Part shown: positions 495-16,521 of the stretch, one piece after another
How the letters are laid out: each line of letters starts with the position of its first letter
How positions within the stretch are numbered: position 1 is the stretch's first letter
Source: Treponema sp.
GTDB lineage: Bacteria; Spirochaetota; Spirochaetia; Treponematales; Breznakiellaceae
Length of the DNA: 16,521 nt
Assembly (NCBI GenBank): GCA_031279925.1
Contig: JAITHQ010000189.1
Coordinates: 1 to 16,521, forward strand
Direction: 5' to 3'
Translations under genes and position numbers: made by a program
The notes under the pieces: model-generated
What the model was told of the DNA's origin: nothing
The model's database searches: none
What the model saw: the letters and a program-made list of their open reading frames with translations, nothing else

Positions 495-1574
495 CTAGCC
501 CTTGAACTGGTCCGCTACCCGGGTAAAGACTTCAACCAGGGCCGGATCAAACTGTTTTCCCTTGCCGTTCTGGATAGCTGTTACCGCTTCCTCATGGCTA
601 AAGGCTTTCTTGTAGGGCCGCTCGGAAGTAAGGGCGTCGTAAACATCGGCAATAGCCATGATCCTGCCCGAAAGGGGAATCGTTTCTGCCTGTAAGCCTA
701 AAGGATACCCTGTTCCGTCCCATTTTTCATGGTGGGTTCCGGCGAAAATTTTTGCGTAATGCAGAAAGTCGCTCTCTTCCGCAACGGCTTCAATTTGTCC
801 AATAACCCGTATGCCGAAACTGGTATGTTTTTTCATTTCCTCAAATTCTTCAGTGGTAAGCGGTCCTGGTTTTTTAAGGATCCGATCGCTGATTGCTATT
901 TTTCCTACATCATGCAGCTGGGACGACTGCAGCAATAATTCAACATTCCAGTCCAGAGCCTCTTCCTGATACGGGCCGTTTTCCCGCAGGGCATTTATAA
1001 GCAGACTCACTCCGCGCTGGGTACGCTCTATGTGCCCGCCGGTTATATCATCCCGGCATTCTACCAGGTCCGCAACGGTTTTGAGTATCGCGTTTTGCAG
1101 CACCAGAACAGTTTTTGTTTTGGCGTCCACCATCTTTTGCAGATTGTCGTTGAAATTTTGAAGTTCGGCGGCCTGCTTTTCCAGGGTTTTTTTCTGCGCT
1201 TCTACCAGGAGGTGTACCTCGATCCGTTTTAGCAGTAAGGGCGGCTGAAACGGCTTAATAATGTAATCGATGGCCCCAAGGGAAAGCCCTTCAAGTTCGT
1301 CGTTGGATTCGGTCTTGGCGGTAAGAAAAATTACCGGAATATTTTTTTGTTCCGGCTTTGACTTGAGAATCTTGATCGCTTCGTAGCCGTCCATTCCCGG
1401 CATGTCGATGTCCAGCAGGATCAGGGCAGGGTGGTTGTTCTCCAAGAGGGCAAACATTTTTTCCGCCGAGGGGGCGGTAGCAACACTGTATTTTTCCGTC
1501 AGGACATTTTTCCCGATGCGCAGATTAGAGGGATTATCGTCTACCAAAATAATCAAGTCTTTCTTATTTTCCAT
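495..1574 (-). CDS. Response regulator with HD-GYP c-di-GMP phosphodiesterase domain
   Basis: A 359-residue cytoplasmic protein. The N-terminal receiver (about 7-122) has the acidic pair D12/D13, phospho-acceptor D55 in [10 protein letters not shown]85 and K107. A predicted helical linker follows (about 123-165). The HD-GYP domain (about 170-350) has H181, the HD pair H221/D222 in HDVGK, then H281/H282 and the signature DGTGYP at 286-291. All metal-binding and GYP landmarks are present, so it is probably an active cyclic-di-GMP phosphodiesterase. This family turns phosphorelay input into c-di-GMP hydrolysis. The ATG at 1572-1574 follows GGAG at a spacing of seven and overlaps the end of hybrid kinase C by 11 bases, so translation is probably coupled. 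Its receiver closely resembles the stand-alone receiver at 8085-8471. It is the last gene of the operon and the likely terminal acceptor for the Hpt domains of the three kinases. Confidence 0.93.
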
Positions 1575-4500
1575 TCCCGTTCTCCATGCCGCTGTTTAAT
1601 AATAGCTTAATGGTATCCAGAGCCGCGTCATATTCAGCTATTAAAACCTGATCCGAAACAAGGTCCAATTTTGTCTGTATATTTGAATCGGGCGCTTGCC
1701 GCTTAAGTTCGTCCAGCAGCCGGTCAATGTCATTAACCTTTTGCGTTTTAAGGGCTTCGGCAAGTTCGCTGAAAAGCAACAGAAGCGCCGCATCCGGATC
1801 GTTTTTTGCCGGGCTGCCGGGGGCCGCCTCTTCCGCAGGCGCGCCGGCGTCCCCATTCAGGGCGGCGCGAATACCGGCGATAAGTTCTTCCAGATGCGCG
1901 GTAAAAGCGGACAGGGTTTTTCCAATTAGGGACAGGTCGCCGGCCTTGCCCGCCGCCTCAAGCCGCTCCGCTTCCGCGGAAACTGCCGCCGCGCCAATGG
2001 AGCCGGACGCGCTTTTGAGCGCGTGGACCTGGGTGGTAAAAGCGGGCAGGGCATCGCTGTCCGGCGGGTTTTGCAAAAATTGCAGCCGTTCCACTGCGTC
2101 TTTACGGAACATCGCCAGTACCTGCCGGTAGCCCCCGGCGGTTCCGCCGGTCATGGCGAGTCCCTGCTCTATGTCCACGCCGGGAATGGAAGAAAAGCCG
2201 CCTCTCCCTCCTCTGCTTCCTTTTTCCGCTCCCTCTCCTGAATAGACGGCTTCCTCCCTTCTGGCCTCCGCCTTCTGCTGTTTATCTTTCGGCAGCCACC
2301 TTCCCATAATCTCATCAAGTTTGGATACATCGATGGGCTTGGCGATAAAATCGCTGAAACCCTGGGCCAAAAACATTTCCCTCATTCCAGATACGGCGTT
2401 GGCGGTAAGGGCAATAATGGGAAGCGGCGGTTTTTCCGGCTGTTCATTTTCCAGGTCCCGTATGATCGCGGTTACCTCAACGCCGTCCATTTCCGGCATC
2501 ATGTGATCCATAAACACCAGATCGTAGCTATTCCGCTTGATCAGTTCCAGGGCTTCCGCTCCGGAAAGGCAGACATCCACAGCCGTCCGGTAGGGGCTCA
2601 GAAGCCCCTCCGCCACTTTAAGATTGGTAACCATGTCATCCACCACCAGAAGCCGGGCGCCGGGGGCGATGAAGCGGGTTTCCATACCGGCGTTTTCGAT
2701 ATAGCCCCTGCGGTCCAGCGTTCCGTTGAGCACGTCGGCGATGGACAGGGACTGCACCGGCAGGGACACAAAACGCGCTCCGGGGATAAAGGATTCGGTT
2801 CCCCATTCGACAAGGAGGGCCAAACGGGGTTTCCGCTCCAGATGTTCCACTACCGGCTGTATCTTCTTATAAAGGCCATAGCCTGAAAACACATAGTACC
2901 ATTCTCCGGCCCGCAAGGCTTCCTCAAAAGAAGCAATGTCCGTTACCATCTGATAGGGGACGGCGAGGTTTTCTAGGGACCAGCTGAGCGATTTTGCGTA
3001 TACCGTCCGGCCCTCGTAGACCAGCACCTTTTTTTCACCCGGCCTGTCCACCTGGGCAAAGGGAATATCCGATACAACTTCCTGGGGAATAACTGCGGTA
3101 AAGGTACTGCCTTTACCGTACTCGCTTTCCACAGAAACATCGCCGCCCATTGCCAGGCACAGTCGCCTGGTGATAGCCAGTCCCAGGCCCGTTCCTTCGA
3201 TGGCCCGGTTCCGTTTTATGTCAACCTGAACAAAATCGCCAAAGAGTTTACTCTGATCCTCTGGTTTTATGCCCGCGCCGGAATCGGAAATGGCTATGCG
3301 GAGGCGGATACGGTTTCCCTCCCGCGGCCCGCAGGCGGTAATGGTAACACTGATACATCCCCGCTCGGTATATTTTACCGCGTTGCCCAAGAGGTTAAGG
3401 AGTATCTGCCGCAGCCGCACTTCGTCGCCGGAAAGGCCGTTGGGAATATGGGAATCGATATTGGTAAAAAAGCGGATGGGCTTTTCTACCAGCCTCATAC
3501 GGATAATACTTACGACGTCATTCACCAGAGAGGAAAGGAGGTACTTGACGGGGATGATCTCCATCCGGCCCGCCTCGATTTTGGAAAAATCCAGCAAGTC
3601 ATTGATAATGGAAAGCAGGTTCGCGGAAGCGTGCTTAATATCGGCGGCGTATTCCCTTGACTCATTGTCGAGTTTCCCCCGCAGAAGCAATTCCGACATG
3701 CCCACGATGGCGTTCATGGGCGTACGAATTTCGTGGCTCATGTTGGCAAGAAAGTTGCTTTTAGTCCGGCTTGCCGCTTCGGCTGCCTCCTTGAGCTCGG
3801 AAAGCCGCCGGTTCTGATCGTCAATTAAACGGTCTTTGGTCTTCCGGGTAGTCTCGACGACTATAGGTACAAAGAAAACCATAATATAGGCGGCTGCGAT
3901 GCGGGCCGCTATTTCCGGCTGGTAGTCGAAGCGGGATAATCCGGGGATAAACAACTCGGCGATGATTATCAAAAGCAGCGCGGCGGAAAGGGTAACGCCG
4001 TAGCTTAGTCCCAGAAGGGTAATGGTAAGTACCGGATACAAATAGATGAACACGATGCCATAGCCCTGGTATTCGCCGTTCCAGGCCAGCAGAATACAGA
4101 GAGCGCCATAACTGAACATAAGTACCGATGCCGGCACAATCTGGGGAATTCTGGTCCGGGACGCCATAAACATTACCGGGCAGATTATGGTAAGGGCGGC
4201 GCAAATTACCGCATCCAGATAGGCGCCCCCCGTCACATTCCAGATGGTAAATATCATAAGCGCCAGAAAACCGGCTGCGGTCATCAGGTTCATAAGCACA
4301 TAACGGATCAAATAATCAGACATGCCGAATTTGTTTTTTTCGGAGTATTTTCCCGATGTGGCGATATTGATAAGCCGCGTGATAATTTTTCTGCTGGCTG
4401 CGGCGGGCGCGGCAACTTCCTGCCCGCCGCCGGTGTACCGGAATTCATCGCTCTCGTGGGCCTTGTACCAGTTGAACAGTATGTTGAGCATTCCGCATAC

Positions 4501-5205
4501 TACCGTAACCACCAGGGCGCATATCTGGATGATCATCATGTTCCGGGAGTCCCGCTTCTGGGCAAGGATATCTTTATCGCTCAGGTCAACGCCGGCTGCG
4601 CAGTAAACCGAGCCGTCCTCCCGGTACACCGGGGCGTTGGCGGAAATAAGCCCGGTTCCGCTGGCCGTGTAGGAATTCAAATCCGAAACCCAGGTTCCGC
4701 CGCCAAGGATGCGGGGAACGGCAATTGCGGTTATGGGGTCTTCTGCGTTGTCAATATCAAAAAACACATCAGGGGTGTACATGTCCTGGGGGTCGGCGTC
4801 GTTGTCGATGATGTACTGAATCCTGCCGTCTCCGTAATCCCGCCAGTAGTAGACATAGAGGACCCCGTATTCTTCGGCAAATTGAACCAGCCGCTCTTTA
4901 AGCTCCCGGTATTCGGGAACGTCAATGTCCTGGATACGGTGATAGCGGTCCAGTTCTTCCACGCTGAGGTACTTTGCCGCAGCCTTTGCCGTGGCCAGAA
5001 GATGGTTCCGGGTGGCCTTGCTCATCATGATCTGGTAGCGGTTAATCCTGATATTTTCATATACTGAAACCAGCAGTATCATAAAGGCGGATACAAAAAA
5101 AATGCCCATGACCAGCCGCACCCTTATGGCCTGGGAAATTTTGTTGCCGCCTCCTGAAGCGCCGTCATTTGCATTGGTTTGCTGTTTTGTTTTTTTTTCA
5201 CGCAT
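1564..5205 (-). CDS. Hybrid sensor histidine kinase C (periplasmic sensor plus multi-pass membrane sensor, HisKA-HATPase-pseudoREC-REC-Hpt)
   Basis: A 1213-residue membrane kinase with an unusual double sensor. TM1 (about 28-50) and TM2 (about 223-245) bracket a Cache-like periplasmic domain (51-222). A linker is followed by a second hydrophobic block (300-452) with five or six further membrane spans. Next come HisKA with phospho-acceptor H491 (SHEIRTPMN), HATPase_c with N-box [10 protein letters not shown] (604-613), G1 DSGAGI (641-646) and G2 GTGLGL (671-676). A receiver-like stretch (about 725-830) lacks the acidic pair and acceptor Asp and is probably degenerate. A complete receiver (850-970, D900) and an Hpt domain with H1061 (VHALKSA) follow, then a C-terminal helical tail (about 1140-1205) shared with the other two kinases. 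The ATG at 5203-5205 has AAGGGA upstream and lies 16 bases after the small membrane gene. The 3' end overlaps the HD-GYP gene. Expected role: autophosphorylation and a His-Asp-His relay to the separate receivers. Ligand unknown. Confidence 0.92.
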
Positions 5206-5221
5206 AACCGTTCCCTTTGCT

Positions 5222-5464
5222 TTACCAGGTGATGATATAGCCGCCGCTCGCCTGTTTTACCTCATGGCGGTTTTCCACCTGGGCGGATGGTATACTATGA
5301 AAGGAAACAAGCGTCACCAGGGAAAAGGATAAGACGATACCAAGAATAAGCAGCAGGCTGAGCATGGTAAAGAACGCCGCAAAGGAAGATTTTGCATTAA
5401 CAGCCGCCGCGCCGCCTAATGCCGGTTTGCCGTTCCTTTGTTTTTGTTTTTTCATTATGGTCAT
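5222..5464 (-). CDS. Small single-pass membrane protein (80 residues), unknown function
   Basis: I do not recognise this product. It has a basic N-terminus ([13 protein letters not shown]), one strongly hydrophobic span at about residues 27-53 ([17 protein letters not shown] region) and a short polar C-terminal tail ending SGGYIITW. By the positive-inside rule the tail should lie outside the cytoplasm. It is well supported as a gene: the ATG at 5462-5464 follows AAGGAG at a spacing of seven, and it overlaps the TGA of hybrid kinase B as ATGA. It ends 16 bases before the kinase C start. Its place between two sensor kinases suggests a kinase accessory or regulatory subunit, but this rests on position alone. 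It could also be a truncated N-terminal signal anchor of a lost sensor gene. Confidence 0.75.
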
Positions 5465-7932
5465 TTAGTATCTCCTTTGGCGGATAAGCCCTTGAGTGTT
5501 TCCCGCGCTGCATCAAATTCGGCCATTAATACTTCGTTGGAAATTTGTTCCAGCTTTTCTTTGGCGTACGAATCCAGCGGCTGCTGCAAAAGCGTTTCCA
5601 GAACACGGTCGATGCCGGCGGTGTTTTGTATTTCGAGGGCTTCGGCAAGTTCATCGAACAGCGGGCGCGGGTCAAAAGCCGCCTGCCCGTTTTGGTTAAG
5701 GTTGTTAGGCGGCGCGTTTTCGTTCAGGGCGGCGCGGATTTTCCAGGCCAGGTCCGCAAGGCGGGCAACGAAACCGGGCAGGGCATCGCCAATCAGATTC
5801 AGGCTGGCGGCCTTTCCGGCAGCCTCAAGCCGCGCCGCTTCCGCAGCAATTTCCGCCGCGCCGATGGTGGCGCACGCGCTTTTAAGCGCGTGGACATGGG
5901 TGGTAAAAAGCGGCAAAGCATCGGGCTGCGGCGTTTCCCGCAGCATTTCCAGCCGTTCCTCCACATCCTGGCGGAAAACGGCCAGCACCTGCCGGTAGCT
6001 TTCGATGGAGCCGCCGGTGAAGATAATTCCCTTTGCCGTATCCACGCCGGGGATAGAGAACAGGCCGGGGGGATGGGGGCCCGGCAGTCTTGCGCCGGCG
6101 GGCGCGGGGGCGCTTGCCTGGAGTTTTACCGCAGGCGGGCAGCCCTCCCCCCGCTTTAAACGTTTCTCTTTTGGAATCCATTTTGCCAGAATCTCGTTAA
6201 GCCTGGCTATATCGATAGGCTTGGAAAGGTAGTCGTTAAAGCCTTTTGCAATAAACATTTCCCTCATGCCGGTTATGGCGTTGGCGGTCAGCGCGACAAT
6301 GGGCACGGTTGTAAAATATTCGCCATCAAGGGCGCGGATTGCGGCGGCGGTTTCGATACCGTCCATTTCGGGCATCATGTGATCCATAAAGATAAAATCG
6401 TAGCGGTTTTGCTTTACCATTTCTATGGCTTCCGCGCCGGAGAGGGCGGTGGCGATGTGCATCCGGTAAGGGGCAAGAAGGCCGCGGGCTACGGTAAGGT
6501 TGGTTCCTATGTCGTCTACAATTAACAGCTTCGCTTCCGGCGCGGTAAAGGGGACGGAGGTTTTTGTTTTTTCGTTTGAAGGGATTGCTATCTTGCTTTC
6601 CCAGGAAACGCCGATGGGACGCTCGTCTTTTACAAGCTGCGGAATAAGGGCGGTAAAGACGCTGCCTTCTCCATACACGCTTTCTACGGTAATATCCCCG
6701 CCCATGTGCTGGCAGAGTTTGCGGCTGATGGCAAGCCCCAGGCCCGTTCCCTCGACGGACTGGTTAAGTTTAATGTCAAAACGGGTAAAATCGCTAAAGA
6801 GCTTTGCCTGGTCTTCCGGTTTCAGGCCGATGCCTGAGTCCTTTACCGAGAGCCGCAGAAGCAGCCTTGCGCCTTCTTTTCCCTTTTGGAGATCCCCTGA
6901 TACCCGCAGTTGAACGCCGCCGTGGTTGGTATATTTTACCGCGTTACTAAGCAGGTTAAGGATCACCTGCCGGATGCGAACCATGTCCCCCAAAAGGGCG
7001 GCGGGAAGGCCGGCGTCTACATCCACGGTGAAGCCCAGGCGTTTTTCCTCCGCCTTCATGCGGATAATGCTGGCGCAGTCGTTCAGGAGGGAGGCAAGCT
7101 GGTACTCGGCGGCGATAATATCCATTTTGCCGGATTCTATTTTTGAAAAGTCAAGGATGTCATTGATAATGGAAAGCAGATTGGTCCCCGCCTGCTTGAT
7201 GCTCATCACGTCTTCGCAGGCATGGGAGGGCAGGTCTTTTTGGAGGAGCAGTTCCGCCATGCCAAGGATCGCGTTCATGGGGGTGCGTATCTCGTGGCTG
7301 GTGCTGGCCAGAAAGCGGCTTTTCGCCTCGGAGGCGGCCTCCGCCTGTTTTGCCGCTTCAATGTAGAGCTTGTTTTGAAAGATGATAATAAAGCAGCTAA
7401 TAGCGGAAGATACTGCCAGGGCCTGGATATTATCCGCATAGGCTGAAAGCCTGGATTCAAACGGGGTAACCAGATCGGGATACAGGTATTCGGCAAAATA
7501 ACAAACGGACTGTACCAGCACCGTTACAATCATCATAATGATTCCTTCTTTTCCCCGAAGGACCAGAATGGCGTTTAATACCGAAAGCAGAAAGTATCCC
7601 ATTATTCCGCTTTCAAAACCGCCGCCGGTAAAATACACCGATGGAAGAATTACGAGGTTTACCAGGGAAAGGACGATAATCGAGCCAAGGCGGAATTGTT
7701 TGATCCGTCTGAGGTAAAAGAACAGTATCAGGGTAACGGCAAGAACGGCCAGAATAACCGCAACCGACAGAATGGGCCCCCCTACCAGAAAGGTCATGAG
7801 CGCTCCAATGCCGCTTGCCAGCATCATAAAAAAGCAAAGCAGAAAAAACTTTTTTTCTTCCAGACTTGCTTCTTTGGAGAAGGCATAGCGGTTGACCATT
7901 TTTTCAAGAAAAACCATGATATTGTTTTTCAT
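5461..7932 (-). CDS. Hybrid sensor histidine kinase B (multi-pass membrane sensor, HisKA-HATPase-REC-Hpt)
   Basis: An 823-residue kinase. The first 190 residues hold about six membrane spans with short loops and no large periplasmic domain, so it probably senses through the membrane or via a partner. HisKA has H213 (SHEIRTPMN). HATPase_c has N-box [10 protein letters not shown] (326-335), G1 DSGIGL (365-370) and G2 GTGLGL (395-400). A single complete receiver follows (467-590, acceptor D517 in [12 protein letters not shown]), then a Pro/Ala-rich linker (about 592-625), Hpt with H681 (VHALKSA) and the shared C-terminal tail (about 755-820). Unlike kinases A and C it has no degenerate receiver. 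I chose the ATG at 7930-7932 because AAGGGAG sits eight bases upstream; a GTG at 7969-7971 would add 13 residues but has no ribosome binding site. It is separated from the stand-alone receiver by 152 bases containing an inverted repeat, and overlaps the small membrane gene by ATGA. Confidence 0.92.
6061..6150 (-). other. GC-rich Pro/Ala linker of kinase B, possibly repeat-derived
   Basis: The stretch coding for the receiver-Hpt linker of kinase B is much more GC- and run-rich than its surroundings and encodes a low-complexity Pro/Ala/Gly segment. It occupies the same place as the repeat insertion in the kinase A linker and has similar short C-runs, but I cannot align the two convincingly. It may be a decayed copy or simply a flexible linker. 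Confidence 0.25.
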
Positions 7933-8014
7933 CTGTTTATCTCCCTTTGCAGACCGCCAAACCGGAAACACCAGTTTTTGAACAAATTCCGTTTTGCTGC
8001 CACAGTTCAGCCTC

Positions 8015-8077
8015 AGAGCCTGTTCAAAATCTGGAATTTTGGCGGTGCAAACGCCAAAATTCTACCTTGCAGGCTCT
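8015..8077. repeat. 63-bp inverted-repeat element in the receiver/kinase B gap
   Basis: The outer arms AGAGCCTG (8015-8022) and CAGGCTCT (8070-8077) are perfect complements. Inside them are GAATTTTGGCG (8034-8044) and CGCCAAAATTC (8052-8062), with a seven-base loop. Parts of the same sequence recur at the right end of the window: the motif AGAGCCTGTTCAAA begins at 16427, and the reverse complement of the right arm ends the window. This points to a dispersed palindromic repeat family. It sits in the only sizeable gap of the operon, where it could act as an attenuator or RNA-stability hairpin. No T-run follows on the minus strand, so it is not a typical terminator. Confidence 0.75.
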
Positions 8078-8084
8078 CAATCCC

Positions 8085-8471
8085 TCAATAACCGTCATCC
8101 GCTTGCAGGTGATCCGCAATGCAGGCAATCAGCGCCGCAGGCTCGAATGGTTTGGTAATGTAGGCGGCGGCCCCCAGGGTATACCCTTCCGCTTGATCGC
8201 CGGATTCTGTTTTGCCGGTAAGGAAGATTACCGGTATATCCCTGGTTTCCGGTTTTGCCTTGAGGATTTTGATTGCCTCAAAGCCGTTGGTCATTGGCAT
8301 GTCGATGTCCAGAAGAATAAGGGACGGCTTGTTGTTTTCCAGTAGGGAAAACATCTTTGCCGCCGAGGGGGCAGTGGCAACGGTGTACTGTCCGGTTAAA
8401 ACGTTTTTACCGATGCGGAGATTTGCCGGATTATCGTCTACCAGCATAATCAGTTTTTTTTCGTTTTCCAT
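8085..8471 (-). CDS. Stand-alone receiver (single-domain response regulator)
   Basis: A 128-residue receiver with no output domain. The acidic pair D12/D13, acceptor D55 (LILLDIDMP), T85 and K107 are all present, so it should be phosphorylatable. It is far closer to the receiver of the HD-GYP protein at 495-1574 than to the receivers inside the kinases: both begin MEN, share DDNP and [10 protein letters not shown] and keep VATAPSA. It is therefore probably a duplicate of that receiver without the output domain. It starts 14 bases after the chemoreceptor stop with a G-rich ribosome binding site. Likely roles are a phosphate shuttle or sink for the kinase Hpt domains, or a protein-protein regulator. 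A CheY role is possible given the neighbouring chemoreceptor, but its similarity to the HD-GYP receiver argues for the phosphorelay. Confidence 0.9.
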   Translation of the reverse strand: MENEKKLIMLVDDNPANLRIGKNVLTGQYTVATAPSAAKMFSLLENNKPSLILLDIDMPMTNGFEAIKILKAKPETRDIPVIFLTGKTESGDQAEGYTLGAAAYITKPFEPAALIACIADHLQADDGY

Positions 8472-8485
8472 CTGCCCCCCGTTTG

Positions 8486-10624
8486 TTATTCAACCTTGAA
8501 TTTAAGGACTTCCCCGGAGAGGGTGTCGATATTGTTTTTGGTGCCGCCGCTTATCTCGTTGATCCGTTTTACGGTGACGGTTATCTGGTCCGCCCCGGAA
8601 GACATTTCGCTCATGCCGTTTTCAATCTGGGAAGTTATCTGCTTAAGGCTGCCGCTTTCCCGTATGGCTTCCTGCCCTTCCTGGGCTATTTCTTCCGCCT
8701 CCTCGCGTACCGTTCCGCTGATGTCCCGCAGCCGGGTTACCGCATCCAGAATCTGCCTGCTGCCGGATTCCTGTTCCTCCATGGCGCTGCGGATACCCGT
8801 TTCCTGATCCGCTACAGTCCGTACTTTTACATCGATGTCCTCAAAACGGTCAAGTACGTTTTTGGTTGACTGGGTAACCATGTCTATCGACGCCTTGATC
8901 TTCTTGAGCATTTCCGCGGTGGTTTGTGACTGCCGGCTTGAGTCCTCGGCAAGTTTGCGGATTTCCCCGGCCACTACGGCAAAGCCTTTTCCCGCTTCTC
9001 CGGCATGGGCGGCCTCGATGGCGGCGTTCATGGAAAGGAGGTTGGTTTGACTTGCGATATTTTCCATTACCGAGTTGATTGCCAAAAGCCCTTCAGACTG
9101 CCGGGCGATCTCCTGAAATTCCCCCGAAATATTTTGTAAATCCCTCCGGCTGACTTCCGAAGAATCGGCCAGGGCCTGTACGTTTTTGGAATTTTTTACC
9201 AGGGTCTCCGCCACCGACCGGATATTGGCAAGCATCTCCTCTATGGCCGATGACGACTGGACAACGCTTTCCGACTGCTGGGCAATATGGCTGTTAAGGT
9301 TTTTGATGTGTTCCATAATATTCGCCATGGAGGTTCCAACCTGGTTTACCTCCCCGGCCTGATTCCCGGTAAGGCCCTTCATACTCTGGATCGCGGCGGC
9401 AATCCGGTTCATTGAACCGACGGTGGCGTCCATTTGTTCCGCCAGTTCCGCGCCGGTTACTGAAAGCGACCGGGTTTTGTCGCGGATAACGGCTACCAGG
9501 CCCTGTATCTTTTCAAAGGTGAGGTTGAAAATTTTTGAAAGGCTTCCTATTTCGTCATTGCCCGCCGAATCGAGCCGCCGGGTAAGGTCCCATGTTTCAG
9601 CGATTTCGGAAAGCACAACGACGCTTTGGTTCAGCGGTTTAACCAGGCGGAAGATAAAGGCATTGATGATAATAAATATCAGCAGGATGGTGAGGATCAT
9701 AACCAGAAAGAGGATCGCGATAAGGCTTTGGAAAATCATGCCGGAATTGAGGGGCATATAAACCGCCATGTACCAGTTAAGCTGGGGAAGCCGGCCTACC
9801 GCGTATTCGGCATTATCCAGCGTAAAGGCCCTTACCTGATCCGGCCCCAGCGCCTTTGCCGCGGCTTCCACCGTTCCCCCGTTTTTTTCCCAGTGGCGGG
9901 CTATGGTTTGTTTTGCTTCCATAAGCCTGCTGTCCCGCGCGCCGGTTATTTCCCCCTGCCCGTTAAAGAGGAACAGCTCCGCATTGCCGCCGCCTTCGCC
10001 GCCAAAGAGCGCGTTAATAAAGTCGGTTAAATCGATGCCGGTTCCTACAATGCCAATAGCCCTGCCCCGCCGGGCGTGCCCGCCTTCAAATACCTGGGCG
10101 TTGATCCAGAGCATTGTTTTTTTAAGCCCAATGTCGTAGTTTACATTAAAGTTAAAAAGCTCATTCTGGGTAAGGGTCCAGGTGTACCAGTTCGAATCGG
10201 GATCGGCGGGGTTGAGGGTATACATATATTCATCGCCAAAGTAGTAACGCCGGTCGGTATCGTTTATCCAGAACACGTTGTTTCCGGTAAAGGCGGAACG
10301 GTACCCGGCAATTTCCGCAAAGGCCATTGATTCCAGTTCCGCATTGCCGGGATCAAGAAAATACCGCCGGATAAGGGGGGAATCGGCCATTTTCAGGGCC
10401 AGGGCTATCTCCCTTGAAACCTGCCCCTCAAGCCGCAGCCGCCTGGTTTCGATAAGCCGGGAAAGCTCCGCGGAGGCGGTGTTCCTGATAATTTGATTCA
10501 TGGAAAGGAAAAAAGCGGTTCCCCCTCCAGCCAGAATGATAAGAAACAAAATGATTGAAAAGACAAGAAACCGGTACTTGATCGATGTCTTTCTTTCGGA
10601 CTTTTTGTCCCTATTCGTTTTCAT
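8486..10624 (-). CDS. Methyl-accepting chemotaxis protein with dCache-type periplasmic sensor
   Basis: A 712-residue transmembrane chemoreceptor. TM1 spans about 18-40 and TM2 about 300-323. The periplasmic region (41-295) has a two-lobed Cache look, with SNWYTWT near 144-150 and GTGIDL near 194-199 resembling conserved Cache positions. A HAMP domain follows TM2 (about 324-376). The signalling domain contains the invariant hairpin-tip region (about 524-560: [20 protein letters not shown], then [16 protein letters not shown]). There is no C-terminal pentapeptide for CheR or CheB tethering. It should form arrays with CheA/CheW encoded elsewhere. The ATG at 10622-10624 follows AGAGGTG and lies 14 bases inside the 3' end of kinase A, so translation is coupled. 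Placement inside a kinase operon suggests it shares a stimulus with the kinases. The ligand cannot be read from the sequence. Confidence 0.95.
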
Positions 10625-13600
10625 GCAGCACCTCTTTTATAAGTAATAAAGCCGAATCAAATTCGGCTATTAAGACCTGATTGGAAATTTGTTCCAGGGT
10701 TTCCCGTGTGTTTGAATCCAGCGGCTGCCGGCCCAGTTCTTCCAGCAGCCGGTCGATGGCTTCGGTTTTTTGCGCCTGGACCGCGCCGGCCAGTTCCCCA
10801 AACAGGGGGCCTAAGCCCGTCCGCCCGCTTTGATCCCCGGCGGCGGCGCTTTCCCCCAGCGCGGCGCGGATTGACCGGGCCAGTTCCGCAAGGCGCTGCG
10901 CAAAACCGTCCAGGGTTTCCCGGATAAGGGCAATGTCGCCGCTTTTACCGGCGGCCTCAAGCCGCGCCGCTTCCGCCGAAATTGCCGACGCGCCGATGGA
11001 CGCCGCCGCGCTTTTAAGCGCGTGAACCTGGGTGGTAAAAAGCGGCAGGGATTCAGGCGGCGGCTCTTTTTGCAGCAGGGGCAGCCGCTCCTGCACGTCT
11101 TTACTGAATATGGCCAGTACCTGCCGGTACCCCGCCACTGTGCCGCCGGTGGCGGCAATTCCCTTTACCGTATCCAGGCCGGGAATGGGGGGAAGGCCGG
11201 GGGGCGTTGCGGGGGGCGGAGCGCCCCTGCTTTGGGGAGTAACGGAACCTGACCTGGTTACATAAGGCGGCTGTGCCGCCCTGCCGGCAAAACGGTCAGG
11301 TGCAGTGAGGGGGGAGACTTCCCCCCCTTTTATTTGTTTTTCCTGGGGTATCCATTTACCCAGGATTTCGTTCAGTTTGGCGATCTCTATGGGTTTGGAC
11401 AGGTAGTCGTTGAATCCTTTTTCCAAAAACATTTCCCGCATCCCGGAAATTGCGTTGGCGGTAAGGGCGATAATGGAAACCGGCTTTCGGGTTTCGCCTT
11501 TGGCGGAATTTTGTTCCGTTTCCCATGCCCGGATCAGCGCGGCGGCCTCGGCGCCGTCCATGCCGGGCATCATGTGATCCATAAACACGATATCCCATTC
11601 ACGGCGTTTTACCAGTTCCACCGCTTCCCTGCCCGACAGGCAGGCGCTTACCTCCATCCGGTAGGGGGCAAGCAGGCCCTCCGCCACGGTAAGGTTGGTA
11701 GCGATATCGTCTACAATCAGGATACGGGCCTTCGGGGCAATGAAACGGACTTCAGTCTTTTCCTGCCAGGCTTTAGTTTCCCTGCCGTTCAGAAGATTGG
11801 CGACGGGAACGGCATAGGCGGGGCTTACGATAGCCTGGGCGTTTTCAAAAGACGGCAGGTCCCCCAGTTCGGCAAGCAGGACCGGAACGGCGGGAAGCCG
11901 GTTCTCCTGTATAAAGGCGGCGGCTCTGGTGTAAAGCCGGGAAGAAACAAAAACGAAGGCCCAGGGGCCGGACTCCGGCCCGCCGCCCATTTCCAGCAGG
12001 GCAAATAGCTCCGCTTCACCGGCAGTCATAAAGGGGACGCCCAGGTTTTCCAGGGTACGGGCAAGGGAGGCGGCGCGGCGGCTCTGGTGATCGCAGAGCA
12101 GTACCGCCTTGGCCTGTGGATTCTCCACTGCCGCCAGGGGCAGCGCCGGGTTTTCCGGGGCACGGGCCTGTAAAATCTTCGCGGTAAACCCCGAGCCGGA
12201 ACCGTATTCGCTTTGCACCGTAATGTCCCCTCCCATAGCCCGGCAGAGGCTGCGGGTAATGGCAAGCCCAAGGCCCGTTCCTTCGATGTTTTTATTTTTT
12301 GCCATATCCAGCCGGACAAAATTGCCAAAGAGGCCGGGCAGGTCCGCCGCTTGAATGCCTATGCCGGAATCGGCGACTTCCATGGAAAGGATCAGTCTTC
12401 CATCGCCGTTTTCCTGGACGGCGCTTACGTCAAGGGCTATGTATCCTTCGCGGGTGTATTTGGCGGCGTTGGAAAGAAGGTTAAGAAGTATCTGCCGTAT
12501 CCTCGCCTCGTCCCCCAAAAGCCGGCCCGGAAGGCACGAGTCCACATTAACGGTAAAAAGGATGGGTTTTTCGCTGATCCGCACCCGGGACACGTTGATT
12601 ACGTCGTTGAGCAGAGACGAAAGCTGGTAGGGCGCGGCGGTTATTTCCAGGTTTCCCGCCTCGATTTTCGAGAAATCCAGAATGTCATTGATAAGCGAAA
12701 GGAGGTTTGCCCCGGCCTGTTTTATCTCACGCACATACTCGGCCATTTTGGGAAGGGTCTGTGAACGCAGGGCCAGTTCCCCCATGCCGATAATGGCGTT
12801 CATGGGTGTACGGATTTCGTGGCTCATCCGGGCCAGAAACGATGACTTGGCCCTGCTTTCCTCGTCGGAACGAATCCGCGCCGCCTCCAGGCGAAGCAAA
12901 ACTATTCCCAGGGAAAAAGCCAGAATAAGGCCTAGAGCCGATAGCATCAACCCGGCGTAATACAAGTCGCGGTAAAAACTGTAATAGGGTGTAACCAGGC
13001 CCACATACCAGCCGTTAAACAGGGGGCGGAAAAACACCAGCGCCTTTTTGCTGTTGCTGTCGCGGATTCGCATGGCCGAGACGCTTTCTCCGGTTCGCAG
13101 CAGCCGGGCCAGTTTCTGGTAATCGTTTCCCAGTTCTTCCATAGGACGCATCCGCATTGATTCCTGGGGGTGAGCCACTACATGCATGTTCTGGCTAAGG
13201 AGTATGCCGTAACCGCCTTTGGAAAGGCTCAAATTCTGGATATATTCATTCAGCCGGGAAATGTTAAGGTTCAGCGCAAGAATACCATCGATGCCGCCCC
13301 GCTCGTTATCAATGTTTCGTACCGCGGAAATGATCACTTCGCCGGTAAGAGCATCCTTGTACGGCGCGGTATAGGCCGTTTTGCCGCTGTTCCGCACCGC
13401 CGTCTGATACCAGGGCCGCTGCTGGGGGATATAATCGTCGCCGGGATTAAGGCCCATGCTGTCGATGAATTCCCCCCGGATATATCCGTAGATGCCGTAT
13501 AGCCGCAATTCCCCTTCCTGCTGCTGCATCCAGCCGGTGGTGGCTGTCAGATACCGGAGCAGTTCTTTGTTGTTTGCCCCGGAAATGATCATGCTTTGGA

Positions 13601-13832
13601 CGGTATGGTAGGTATTGAGCAGGCTGGTATCGGCCTCCGCAAAGGCGGAACGTATACGGGCCTCTACCGCGGAAAGGGACCAATCCGAGCTTTCCAATAG
13701 CCGGTTCCAGAGAATGCCCCGTACAAAAAGGTAGCCTGTTAGCACCATAATAAAAAAAGCCCCAAACACCAGGAGAATCTGGGTGGATTTTTTGGCCTTT
13801 TTCGGAACGGCTTTCCAGAGCGGTTTCTTCAT
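10611..13832 (-). CDS. Hybrid sensor histidine kinase A (dCache sensor, HisKA-HATPase-pseudoREC-REC-Hpt)
   Basis: A 1073-residue kinase. TM1 (about 18-40) and TM2 (about 291-313) enclose a dCache domain. It contains Y134, R139, W141 and Y142, with the spacing of the published amino-acid-binding dCache motif, but the final Asp position appears to be N188. HisKA has H338 (SHEIRTPMN). HATPase_c has N-box [10 protein letters not shown] (451-460), G1 DSGIGI (488-493) and G2 GTGLGL (518-523). A degenerate receiver-like stretch (about 575-680) precedes a complete receiver (703-825, D752). Hpt carries H937, and the helical tail (about 1010-1070) is shared with kinases B and C. The receiver-Hpt linker (about 834-878) is encoded by a repeat element. 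The ATG at 13830-13832 overlaps the second lipoprotein's stop as ATGA, with no strong ribosome binding site, implying translational coupling to the binding protein. This makes it the prime candidate partner of the BMP lipoproteins. Confidence 0.93.
11201..11328 (+). repeat. 128-bp palindromic repeat, copy 1, inside the kinase A coding sequence
   Basis: The element begins GGGGCGTTGCGGGG and ends with a hairpin AGGGGGGA-GACT-TCCCCCCC. Between these, arms ACCTGACC (11247-11254) and GGTCAGGT (11294-11301) flank a 39-nt loop containing GGCGGCTGTGCCGCC. Copy 2 (16172-16298, opposite strand) has the same ends, length and layout. It is translated in frame as the Pro/Ala-rich linker between the receiver and Hpt domains of kinase A. 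Such a linker tolerates insertions, which probably explains its survival. Confidence 0.7.
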
Positions 13833-15007
13833 GGCTGGGTCTCAATCACCGTGCGGTAGTACCAGTCAATACTGCTGAGTATCTCGCTGTCGGAAAGGGT
13901 TTTTCCCTCCGCGCCGATCCGGCGTCCGTCATTGGTTTCCAGAACGCCGTCAAAAATATTAAAGTTCCCGTTTTTGATACGCTCCCTGGCTTCCGCCACC
14001 GCCTCGCCGGTTCCCGGCGCGGCAAGGTTTTCGGCAAGGGGGGTAATGTCCACTACCCCCTCTTTAAGGCCGTAAAAATGCGGCGCGGACTTAAAGGTTC
14101 CCTGCATAACGCTTTCCACAAACCGGGTATAGAACGCGCCCCAGTTGATCACCACCGATGTAATCACTGCCAAAGGCGCGTCCCCCCTCATGTCGCTGTA
14201 AAAGCCGATACCGCTTATGCCGGCCTTCTGGGCCGCTATTTGGGGAGTTGGAGTATTGCAGTGCTGGGCCATCACGTCGCAGCCTGCGGCGACAAGGTAT
14301 TCGGCGGCCACGTTTTCGCCCATAGGATCAAACCAACTGTAGGTAAGGCGCACATACACCCGCGCCGAGGGATTCACGGTTTCCACCCCCAGGGCAAAGG
14401 CGTTGATTCCCCCGGTAACTTCGCTGTTGTCTTTTCCCATAGCCGCCACATAGCCTATTTTGTTTGTTTTTGTTTTTAGCCCCGCCACAATGCCGCTCAG
14501 GTAGCGTCCGTGGTACAGCCGTGCGGAGTAATTGGTAAAATTGCTGCCGTTGTATTTGTACCCTGTGGCGTGGGCAAAAACCACCTGGGGAAATTCGGCG
14601 GCCAGTCGCTCACAGGCGTCCATGTAACCCCAGCTGGTGGCAATGATGATGTTGGCCCCTTCGGCAATACAGTCCCGCATGGCCGATTCAGCCTCGGCGC
14701 TGTCGCCATCAAAAATATCGATCTTGCGGATAAGCTGATCTTTGGCGAGGCCCAGATTCCGCTGCATCTCCATAGTTCCGGTATAATGAGCGTAATCGTA
14801 CCGTGAACGCTCGTCGATTTGGTTGGGGTGGATTATGCCGATCTTTACCTGTTTCTTTTCCAGGGGCATTCCGGGCCGCCACGCCTGTTTTTCCTGTTTT
14901 GAACAGCCGGCCATAAGGAACGGAACAATCAAGGCCAAAAAAACAGTTTTTTTAGCGGTTGTTGTTGCAAAACTAAAGTTTTGCAACAAGCTCTTTCGCC
15001 CGTTCAT
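13829..15007 (-). CDS. BMP/Med-family substrate-binding lipoprotein (second copy)
   Basis: A 392-residue secreted lipoprotein. The signal peptide ends in the lipobox LMAGC with lipidated Cys at residue 35. The mature part begins the BMP fold with KIGIIHPNQ, followed by FDGDSAEAESAMRDC, IIATSWGYM, VVFAHATG, GYVAAMGKDNSEVTGGINAF and TYSWFDPMGE, in the usual order for periplasmic BMP (PnrA/Med-like) proteins. Known members bind purine nucleosides or other small ligands for ABC importers. No permease or ATPase gene lies nearby, which favours a sensing role. The ATG at 15005-15007 overlaps the TGA of the first copy (ATGA) behind a GGTGGTGGA stretch, and its own stop overlaps kinase A. Residues 7-16 of the signal peptide are encoded by a perfect palindrome, making its N-region unusually long. 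It is a close paralogue of the gene at 15004-16140. Confidence 0.9.
   Translation of the reverse strand: MNGRKSLLQNFSFATTTAKKTVFLALIVPFLMAGCSKQEKQAWRPGMPLEKKQVKIGIIHPNQIDERSRYDYAHYTGTMEMQRNLGLAKDQLIRKIDIFDGDSAEAESAMRDCIAEGANIIIATSWGYMDACERLAAEFPQVVFAHATGYKYNGSNFTNYSARLYHGRYLSGIVAGLKTKTNKIGYVAAMGKDNSEVTGGINAFALGVETVNPSARVYVRLTYSWFDPMGENVAAEYLVAAGCDVMAQHCNTPTPQIAAQKAGISGIGFYSDMRGDAPLAVITSVVINWGAFYTRFVESVMQGTFKSAPHFYGLKEGVVDITPLAENLAAPGTGEAVAEARERIKNGNFNIFDGVLETNDGRRIGAEGKTLSDSEILSSIDWYYRTVIETQP
14962..14989. repeat. Perfect 13-bp inverted repeat within a signal-peptide coding region
   Basis: TTGTTGCAAAACT (14962-14974) is followed by AA and then AGTTTTGCAACAA (14977-14989), an exact reverse complement. 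It encodes residues 7-16 (LQNFSFATTT) of the second lipoprotein, in the stretch before the hydrophobic core. The first lipoprotein lacks this segment, so it looks like a small in-frame insertion. Confidence 0.8.
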
Positions 15008-16140
15008 TCCACCACCGTCCGGTAATACCAGTTAATTCCGTCCCGTATCTCGCTGTCGGAAAACCGCCTGCCCGCCACGCCTATAAAACGGCCATCGTTG
15101 GTTTCAAGAACGCCTTCGAACACGTCAAAGATTCCTTCTTCAAGCCGCAGCCGTTCCTCAAGAATTTTCTCTGCCGTTCCCGGCGCGGCGTTGGCCGAAA
15201 GGGGGCTTATGTCCACCGCTCCGTCTTTCAGGGAACCAAAATAGGGCGCTGCGGTAAAACTCCCGTCTATAACGCTTTGCACCAGCGAGATATAATAGGC
15301 CCCCCAGTTCCAGACCGCCGATGTAAGCGCCGCCTGGGGCGCGTCGGCGGTCATGTCCGTATTGTAGCCGATGCTCCAAACCCCCGCCCGCTGGGCTTCG
15401 ATCTGGGGGTTGGGCGTATCGCAGTGCTGGGCTATTACATCGCAGCCTGCGGCAATCAGGCTGCGGGCCGCGTTCATTTCGCCCATAGGATCAAACCAAC
15501 TGTAGGTAAGGCGCACGTGAATCCGCGCGCCGGGCTTAACCTTTTCCACCCCCAGGGCAAAGGCATTAATCCCCCCGGTAACCTCGCTGTTGTCCTTCCC
15601 CATAGCCGCTACATAGCCGATTCTGTTGGTTCTGGTTTTAAGGCCCGCGGCAATGCCGCTTAAATACCGGGCCTGGTATATCCGCCCAAAGTAGTTGGTA
15701 AAATTGGTTCCATTGTACCTGGAACCCGTTGCGTGGGCAAAAACAACCGAAGGAAATTCCGCCGCCAGGCGCTCGCAGACATTCATGTAACCCCAGCTGG
15801 TGGCGAAAATAATCTGCGCCCCCGCCGCAATGCAGTCCCGCATGGCGCTTTCAACCAGCGCCGTTTCACCATCGAAAATATTAACCTTGCGGATAATCTG
15901 TTCTTCCAAAAGCCCCAGTTCCCGCCGCATAGCCTTAATACCTTCGTCATGGGCAAAGGTGTAACCCGAATGTTCGGCCAGGGGATTTGAAATATAGATA
16001 ACCCCGATTTTGATCTTTTCCTGTGCCAGCGGCATACCCGGTTTCCACAAGGCCGCCTGTTTTGTACAAGCAGGAACAAGCAGCGCCGCCGTAATCAGGA
16101 CAAGTGCGCCCAGCCGGAGCTTGATCCCTTTGCTTCTCAC
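15004..16140 (-). CDS. BMP/Med-family substrate-binding lipoprotein (first copy)
   Basis: A 378-residue secreted lipoprotein and the first gene of the operon. The signal peptide is short (MRSKGIKLRL, then a hydrophobic core) and ends in a relaxed spirochaete-type lipobox VPAC, with Cys25 as the lipidated residue. The mature protein has the BMP-family blocks: KIKIGVIYI, FDGETALVESAMRDC, IIFATSWGYM, VVFAHATGSRYNG, KDNSEVTGGINAFALGVE, TYSWFDPMGE and DVIAQHCDTPNPQ. I chose the GTG at 16138-16140 because AAGGAG lies seven bases upstream, the signal peptide begins there, and the promoter at 16339-16347 excludes the longer frame. It shares long blocks with the second copy, including a 39-base stretch identical in DNA. 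The family normally delivers ligands to ABC importers; here the neighbours are sensor kinases. The ligand cannot be told from sequence. Confidence 0.92.
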   Translation of the reverse strand: MRSKGIKLRLGALVLITAALLVPACTKQAALWKPGMPLAQEKIKIGVIYISNPLAEHSGYTFAHDEGIKAMRRELGLLEEQIIRKVNIFDGETALVESAMRDCIAAGAQIIFATSWGYMNVCERLAAEFPSVVFAHATGSRYNGTNFTNYFGRIYQARYLSGIAAGLKTRTNRIGYVAAMGKDNSEVTGGINAFALGVEKVKPGARIHVRLTYSWFDPMGEMNAARSLIAAGCDVIAQHCDTPNPQIEAQRAGVWSIGYNTDMTADAPQAALTSAVWNWGAYYISLVQSVIDGSFTAAPYFGSLKDGAVDISPLSANAAPGTAEKILEERLRLEEGIFDVFEGVLETNDGRFIGVAGRRFSDSEIRDGINWYYRTVVE

Positions 16141-16332
16141 TTCGCAACTCCTTTTTAACTTTTTATAATAGAGGGGGGAAGCCTCCCCCCTGGGCCGCAA
16201 TCCGGCCATTTTGTTTGTTGGGCAGCCGTGCCGCCTTTGGGTAAAGTGGCCGGATTGCGGCCCACCCCCCTCTGCGGGGCTCTGCCCCGCAACGCCCCGC
16301 CGTCTATCCATATTTTGCGACCGCTGTTTTAT
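16141..16332 (-). promoter_or_regulatory. Long structured leader of the operon
   Basis: This is the expected untranslated leader between the promoter and the first GTG, about 190 nt. It holds a repeat element with three potential hairpins (16172-16191; arms 16192-16208 and 16247-16263; and a G/C-run pair at about 16273-16290). The ribosome binding site AAGGAG lies just downstream of the last hairpin. I see no match to a known riboswitch. Folding of the repeat could affect early transcription or ribosome access, but the element is repeat-derived, so this is inference. Confidence 0.4.
16172..16298 (-). repeat. 127-bp palindromic repeat, copy 2, in the operon leader
   Basis: On the minus strand it begins GGGGCGTTGCGGGG and ends with the hairpin AGGGGGGA-GGCT-TCCCCCCT. 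The internal arms are a perfect 17-bp inverted repeat, GGGCCGCAATCCGGCCA (16192-16208) and TGGCCGGATTGCGGCCC (16247-16263), around a 38-nt loop. Copy 1 inside kinase A has the same ends and nearly the same loop length but different arm sequences. Confidence 0.75.
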
Positions 16333-16426: not shown

Positions 16427-16521
16427 AGAGCCTGTTCAAATTGTGGATTTTTGCAGTCAATAGACCGCAAAAATCCCGATTTTTGGGCTCTTTTGGAGCC
16501 TGCAAGGTAGAATTTTGGCGT
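16427..16521. repeat. Repeat cluster related to the 63-bp element, cut by the window end
   Basis: It starts AGAGCCTGTTCAAA, as the element at 8015 does. GGATTTTTGC (16445-16454) pairs with GCAAAAATCC (16467-16476) around a 12-nt loop. From about 16495 to the window edge the sequence is the reverse complement of the right arm of the 8015-8077 element (GAGCCTGCAAGGTAGAATTT and on). This looks like two neighbouring or composite members of one repeat family, the second continuing outside the window. Confidence 0.6.

Follow-up and report, generated by a model that had tools for sequence, protein, structure and literature searches.

In the LuxP-LuxQ and TorT-TorS systems, a periplasmic binding protein reports to a hybrid kinase with a receiver and a phosphotransfer step. 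A further case is the Bacillus subtilis lipoprotein Med, which we take to be a relative of the BMP family and which is said (in work of 2011 attributed to Banse and cited in PMC3911142 and PMC11210211) to be required for the activity of KinD; to our knowledge, Med-KinD is so far a single case. According to PMC13068155, it is established that binding proteins work together with two-component systems, and such arrangements are called three-component systems; for KinD, Table 1 of PMC11210211 gives the domains TM-dCache-HisKA-HATPase. Among the titles listed by literature searches for a BMP-kinase system, none describes one.

The window analyzed here is a stretch of 16,521 nucleotides from a Treponema contig. 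ORF and Pfam analysis found nine intact ORFs, all on the minus strand and at the places given by the initial annotation, whose account of the gene content thus holds: BMP1, BMP2, HKA, MCP, REC, HKB, SMP, HKC and REC-HD-GYP. The first ATG, GTG or TTG was taken as the gene start, with that of HKB set to the ATG at 7932 and not to the upstream GTG. BMP1 (15004..16140, minus strand, as are all the genes below; Bmp E-value 3.5e-39) has a GTG start with AGGAG upstream and a lipobox-like LVPAC, while BMP2 (13829..15007; 8.8e-44) carries a lipobox-like LMAGC and shares an ATGA overlap with the kinase A gene. Against the Bmp domain (PF02608, cut-off 24.1), these two BMP-family lipoproteins reach 135 and 150.1 bits, the lipobox-like cysteine having been recognized by eye. 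HKA (10611..13832), the presumed partner of BMP2 and perhaps of BMP1, belongs to a family conserved downstream of BMP genes and has the dCache, HisKA, HATPase, REC and Hpt domains of a dCache_1 hybrid histidine kinase. Its periplasmic dCache sensor is encoded at 12978..13715 (residues ~40-285; model pLDDT 87.9), and among the three HisKA-HATPase-REC-Hpt kinases of the window it is the only one with a Pfam dCache domain.

Downstream of HKA, MCP (8486..10624; HAMP-MCPsignal) has a dCache-like sensor, recognized by a sub-threshold dCache match, that differs from the one of HKA and belongs to sensor family A3. It is followed by REC (8085..8471), a lone receiver that shares 70% identity with the receiver domain of REC-HD-GYP, and by HKB (5461..7932), a membrane hybrid kinase (HisKA-HATPase-REC-Hpt) without dCache. 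SMP (5222..5464) is an 80-residue protein with one hydrophobic stretch and neither a Pfam nor an NCBIfam match, and HKC (1564..5205) is again a membrane hybrid kinase (HisKA-HATPase-REC-Hpt). The last gene, REC-HD-GYP (495..1574), has HDVGK and a HHExxDGxGYP-type motif and would encode a response regulator of the REC plus HD type, a predicted c-di-GMP phosphodiesterase. The phospho-acceptor histidines, the Hpt motif and the HD-GYP motifs are all readable in the window proteins. Several of the genes are in-operon paralogues, namely the kinase cores (HKA and HKC are 48% identical over 773 residues), the BMPs (64% between BMP1 and BMP2) and the receivers. None of the nine encodes an importer permease or ATPase, as had been stated initially. 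Past the HD-GYP gene, the minus strand of positions 1-494 looks by eye like the tail of a phage-type regulator that has been truncated, with no ORF of at least 80 residues listed.

At the four junctions from BMP1 to REC (BMP1/BMP2, -4 nt; BMP2/HKA, -4, the ATGA; HKA/MCP, -14; MCP/REC, +14) and at the three from HKB to HD-GYP (HKB/SMP, -4; SMP/HKC, +16; HKC/HD-GYP, -11), the genes overlap or are no more than 16 nt apart. Between REC and HKB lies a gap of about 152 nt with a hairpin inside, a possible site for a second promoter or an attenuator. We infer that all nine genes are carried on a single transcript, and MCP is likely to be co-transcribed with its neighbors. The more specific proposal of a single promoter and a single terminator was not sustained by scans of the window: the consensus scan gave 15 promoter-like sites versus 12.4 +/- 4.0 in shuffled sequences, which is chance level, and terminator-like sites were little above chance (34 versus 26.8 +/- 5.5), with neither a minus-strand promoter-like site upstream of BMP1 nor a minus-strand terminator-like site below position 495 among those listed. 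By eye, an extended -10-like TGG-TATAAT at 16347-16339 (minus strand) is a candidate promoter, with a poor -35 and absent from the consensus scan.

The BMP1 leader also holds an inverted repeat (16191..16264, minus strand) with 22-nt arms that are 95% complementary; a riboswitch was considered for this leader and discarded, as the window has no Rfam match at E-values up to 1. Elsewhere, a perfect 26-nt inverted repeat pair joins the space between REC and HKB (8051-8076) with the region upstream of BMP1 (16496-16521), and beside it lies a 27-nt direct repeat (89%; 8015-8041 and 16427-16453). Judged by their sequence and placement, these repeats look like a dispersed intergenic element.

Regarding the binding proteins, the BMP2 structure was modeled with a mean pLDDT of 89.4, and its nearest solved relatives are AtzT (E 7.8e-59) and the Brucella protein 3s99 (1.1e-53) by sequence, and the same pair by fold. 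According to PMC6834077, AtzT contacts guanine through Tyr45, Ser97, the Phe98 backbone, Glu165, Trp194, Asn218 and Asn220, and 3s99 was modeled with adenine. Mapped by hand on AtzT, the equivalents in BMP2 are Y70, S125, W126, E196, W225, H249 and N251, and BMP1 is the same except for a D at position 251. Both proteins thus appear to have an AtzT-type pocket, with the stacking Tyr/Trp and the Ser, Glu and Asn(His)/Asn(Asp) contacts. In a comparison of 30 receptor-adjacent BMPs, W occupies the Trp194 position in all 30, S that of Ser97 in 29, E that of Glu165 in 27, and N or D that of Asn220 in all 30. The conservation is equal in importer BMPs and therefore supports a purine-type ligand, not a sensing role; on this basis the ligand is probably a purine. 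The residue at pocket position 251 was also tried as a rule separating first from second BMPs, and this was rejected: 8 of the 12 tandem pairs have one D and one N, and either residue may come first.

To place the locus among other BMP genes, a BMP-centered set of 79 loci was taken from a genome scan (best 80 of 485 confirmed stretches) and classified by the gene within 1500 nt downstream of the BMP. A receptor of the HKA-dCache family follows in 30 loci (29 kinases and one HD-GYP protein), a PnrC/D/E-type importer in 22, an MCP in nine and none of these in 18. The spacing between BMP and receptor is -49 to 107 nt in 28 of the 30, six of them with the same -4 overlap as BMP2/HKA, and 490 and 616 nt in the other two. 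PnrD/E permeases were found in none of the 30 receptor loci. The initial annotation had proposed looking in related spirochaete genomes for BMP and dCache hybrid kinase adjacency without ABC permeases, and this is the arrangement found in those loci. By their locus labels, the receptor-linked BMPs come from eight phyla, a count that binning errors in MAGs could inflate, and seven of the 30 (L007, L010, L019, L023, L026, L037, L057) carry sample codes of termite guts, matched through PMC7024585.

Several of the 18 loci without a classified neighbor end close to a contig edge, and in another of them (L001) the receptor lies about 1.5 kb from the BMP, beyond an opposite-strand gene. Real exceptions among the non-Bacillota loci are L005, L035, L044 and L061, which have no adjacent receptor; the BMPs of L005, L044 and L061 are members of the kinase-linked clade described below, as is that of L001, and those of L035 are outside the tree. 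The "ABC" labels given to L005 and L044 were dismissed as an artifact of the motif rule, since their neighbors include no PnrD/E permeases. In G221, a Treponema primitia-like genome in a single contig of 4,059,867 bases, a profile search gave four Bmp matches: two BMPs have PF02653 permeases no more than about 4 kb away and the other two stand in tandem directly before an HKA-like kinase, after which comes an HKC-like kinase (46% over 952 residues to the window HKC).

Two other arrangements were observed alongside. In Lachnospiraceae and other Clostridia, BMP genes are paired with MCP genes (L050, L052, L058, L064, L065, L070, L074, L075, L076; gaps of -14 to 22 nt), the MCP of L052 having a single Cache domain, sCache_3_3; as read from sequence, such a pair is possibly a BMP-dependent chemoreceptor. 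At L001 (8739-17246), L007 (1-8850) and L154 (6619-7764), other binding-protein families are found among hybrid kinases (SBP_bac_8, DUF3798, Peripla_BP_6 and an SBP_bac_3-like domain fused to the kinase), as if the pairing of binding proteins with kinases were general at these loci.

The association was also approached from the receptor side, with a profile (A2) built from BMP-adjacent receptors and run against three phyla, represented by 296, 149 and 150 genomes, the phylum of each genome being taken from the titles of the loci within it. Of the 87 receptor hits listed, the loci of 40 were examined, and in the 296-genome search at most seven candidates were scored per genome. At 377 bits or more there are 15 loci representing 14 distinct genes (L089 and L094 are one gene), and a BMP lies immediately upstream on the same strand in 13 of these 14, the exception being the gene of L001. 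Receptors at or below 340 bits have a BMP immediately upstream in none of 25, two of which have only about 600 nt of upstream room. Six of the 13 BMP-linked high scorers (L082, L083, L099, L110, L111, L112) are new with respect to the 79 BMP loci. Similarly, 12 hits of at least 400 bits in ten carrier genomes comprise 10 with an adjoining BMP, one with a BMP across an insert and one without, the last being a 441-bit receptor (G002:C23) that has a divergent Peripla_BP_6 gene instead. The score boundary is not clean, since L054 is BMP-adjacent at only 327 bits. Upstream of the lower-scoring receptors, REC-HD-GYP genes were found in five and a lone REC in one of six cases picked by look from 23 upstream ORFs, and L088 has an upstream SBP gene. 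The receptor signaling family therefore also exists without a BMP, and its BMP-dependent members look like a derived branch.

In a quick tree of 93 BMP rows, a group of 52 (SH-aLRT 100) takes in all 42 rows labeled as receptor-linked, and its remaining ten members are unlinked, at contig ends or adjoining unrelated genes. The nine MCP-linked BMPs group together elsewhere in the tree. Over 28 adjacent pairs, BMP distance correlates with that of the outer part of the receptor (r 0.67) more than with that of the next 235-residue kinase segment (r 0.40; bootstrap range of the difference 0.02 to 0.54), and the partial correlation with the outer part is 0.60, reached in 0 of 5000 permutations. A common history of BMP and receptor outer part, or a physical partnership between them, would agree with this co-divergence, which falls short of a proof of contact. 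Two residues follow the same division: Q137 is present in 35 of 35 high-scoring receptors versus 4 of 30 lower-scoring ones, and R147 in 34 of 35 versus 5 of 30, where the lower group takes in second receptors from BMP loci and perhaps L054, and L004, which falls between the groups, was dropped. Q137 and R147 are thus candidate docking residues of a dCache subfamily. A direct proof of interaction was sought in BMP-kinase fusions and was not obtained: of 137 HKA-sensor homologues, 120 were listed, and none of these 120 has a Bmp domain.

The modeled HKA sensor is a canonical dCache by Foldseek and VIA-align, and model and sequence place it among the amino-acid and amine dCache sensors. It carries Y134, R139, W141, Y142 and Y158, positions that we take to be the amino-acid motif of the general dCache ligand pocket. 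As most of the residues of this pocket are kept, HKA may bind a ligand itself. The motif is less uniform at two positions, R139 being lost in 8 of 35 high-scoring receptors and D188 present in 32 of 35, with N188 in the window HKA. The general motif is kept in lower-scoring relatives without a BMP, and it is Q137 and R147 that mark the BMP-linked group.

The window MCP, in turn, does not look like a BMP-specific part, the role that the initial annotation had in effect given it. Of the 296 genomes from the G001 phylum, 32 contain the sensor family of this MCP, mostly in chemoreceptor-sized frames without a BMP, and a dedicated BMP receptor was discarded on these grounds. An A3-sensor gene immediately adjoins a BMP only as the G221 kinase among the genomes examined (in G002 it is about 5 kb off) and in L027 among the loci. 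An MCP follows the kinase in L003 and L011, and a BLAST search with the N-terminal 400 residues of the window MCP matched only the HAMP-side end in L011 and nothing in L003. A hybrid kinase of the T. primitia-like genome (L155, 9866-12769) has a sensor 38% like that of the window MCP and a 4-nt overlap with the first BMP gene, from which an exchange of sensors between kinase and MCP outputs may be read.

On the output side, the link to HD-GYP put forward initially is backed by fusions and by recurrent neighbor genes. An HKA-type dCache is fused to an HD domain in L021 (528 residues) and L110 (531 residues), and the HD domain of L021 is 62% identical to the window HD-GYP over 200 residues. REC-HD-GYP genes occur at 8 of 29 receptor-linked loci versus 0 of 23 labeled ABC and 0 of 9 MCP loci. 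Also, the HKA-type kinase of L017 has an extra C-terminal receiver that is 65% identical to the lone REC. Related receivers carry, in its place, a class III cyclase (L011, L027) or a SpoIIE phosphatase (L055), so c-di-GMP is a common output and not the sole one.

The proposal of the initial annotation that BMP and dCache hybrid kinase make up one sensor unit is upheld by the 30 of 79 loci with this adjacency, by the 13 of 14 high-scoring receptors and by the absence of importer permeases there. The BMP-kinase unit is real and conserved, most simply a module of a ligand-binding lipoprotein and a dCache receptor that often has an HD-GYP output, and its conservation across phyla suggests a transport family turned into the sensor for a second-messenger switch. 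For the window, we consider it probable that the operon is an envelope three-component sensor, with the BMP acting on the dCache of HKA, a relay to HD-GYP, and HKB, HKC and MCP as further inputs or outputs of the cluster. BMP2, and perhaps BMP1, would be lipid-anchored and close around a small ligand, for which a purine base is the likeliest candidate; the closed BMP would dock on the periplasmic dCache of HKA and not on an importer; HKA would autophosphorylate and pass the phosphoryl group through its own receiver and Hpt to the lone REC and to REC-HD-GYP; and the latter would shift the c-di-GMP level and with it motility or surface behavior. In this scheme we infer the physical BMP-HKA complex, the purine ligand, the phosphoflow and the sign of the response.

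The BMPs could instead be ordinary importer binding proteins that serve a permease elsewhere and lie in a signaling operon because its kinases regulate uptake. Such a permease had been raised by the initial annotation as a point against itself, and the concern stands insofar as PF02653 permeases occur somewhere in 10 of the 11 carrier genomes examined, so that one could be shared, and insofar as Bacillota relatives of the BMPs do precede PnrC/D/E-type importers (22 of 79 loci). It weakens in G221, where the importers are accompanied by two BMPs of their own, and in G005, which has no PF02653 match; with importer permeases missing from all 30 receptor loci, a separate BMP clade and BMP divergence that tracks the outer part of the receptor, we find this explanation improbable. 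Somewhat less remote, and still unlikely, is that HKA senses its ligand directly in its own dCache pocket, the BMP being an accessory that tunes or delivers it. The placement of the domain among amino-acid and amine sensors, the five motif residues and D188 in most high-scoring receptors speak for direct sensing, whereas the N188 of the window, the loss of R139 in some receptors, the persistence of the motif in relatives without a BMP and the two residues that mark the BMP-linked group speak against it.

A third doubt concerns the extent of the system. The nine genes might not be one system at all, with BMP1-BMP2-HKA as the unit and MCP, HKB, HKC and HD-GYP as neighbors gathered by duplication, which is in keeping with the hairpin-containing gap before HKB, with an MCP sensor family that is not BMP-specific and with the duplicated kinases, BMPs and receivers. 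Yet the genes overlap on both sides of this gap, G221 has an HKC-like kinase after its HKA-like gene as well, and REC-HD-GYP genes recur at receptor-linked loci and are absent from those labeled ABC. We hold this narrower unit to be less likely than not, though the strongest of the three alternatives to the three-component sensor.

If the ligand of this sensor is a purine, the availability of purines in the gut would be connected to c-di-GMP behavior. Going further, one may speculate, with little confidence, that a purine-sensing BMP/dCache module was carried by horizontal transfer among gut bacteria from some eight phyla, in part at least within termite hindguts, with tandem BMPs of different purine preference acting on one receptor and with phosphodiesterase, cyclase and phosphatase outputs swapped on a common receiver; if true, this module would let the community of uric-acid-recycling termites read nitrogen-rich purines.

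Compared with the known systems, the window shares with LuxP-LuxQ and TorT-TorS a binding protein and a hybrid kinase, the binding proteins being of other families, and HKA scores below the LuxQ equivalog (258.3 bits, cut-off 1200) and the TorS equivalog TIGR02956 (324.5 bits, cut-off 676.5). With the PnrA/AtzT-type BMPs of ABC importers it has the fold and the purine pocket in common; however, importer genes are absent from the locus and the kinase-linked BMPs are a separate clade. The Clostridia BMP-MCP pairs likewise have a BMP directly before the receptor gene, but differ in their chemotaxis output, in the single sCache_3_3 domain of the one MCP examined (L052) and in their own BMP clade. 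Hence, an importer-type family is met in three wirings (importer, chemoreceptor and kinase) with a clade-level boundary in gene neighborhood.

Med-KinD is the match in architecture, a lipoprotein taken to be of the BMP family with a dCache kinase, and BMP2 is matched by 2hqb, presumably a Med homologue, both by sequence (E 2.8e-9) and by fold. It is thus a precedent for a BMP-family lipoprotein acting with a dCache kinase, and the initial annotation, which was aware of no described BMP-kinase-MCP-HD-GYP system, needs correcting on this point. As differences, KinD, which is no hybrid kinase, feeds Spo0A and not HD-GYP, and the window system has tandem BMPs and pairs them with the kinase in an operon. 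The KinD sensor did not turn up among the sequence matches to profile A2. Next to this single case, the survey offers dozens of natural BMP-kinase pairs, including what seems to be one from a cultured spirochaete; it also defines a dCache subfamily, proposes residues for docking and points to a ligand class. Altogether, the kind of system is known, and what is new is the subfamily pairing, the tandem BMPs, the spread across phyla and the predicted purine-to-c-di-GMP wiring.
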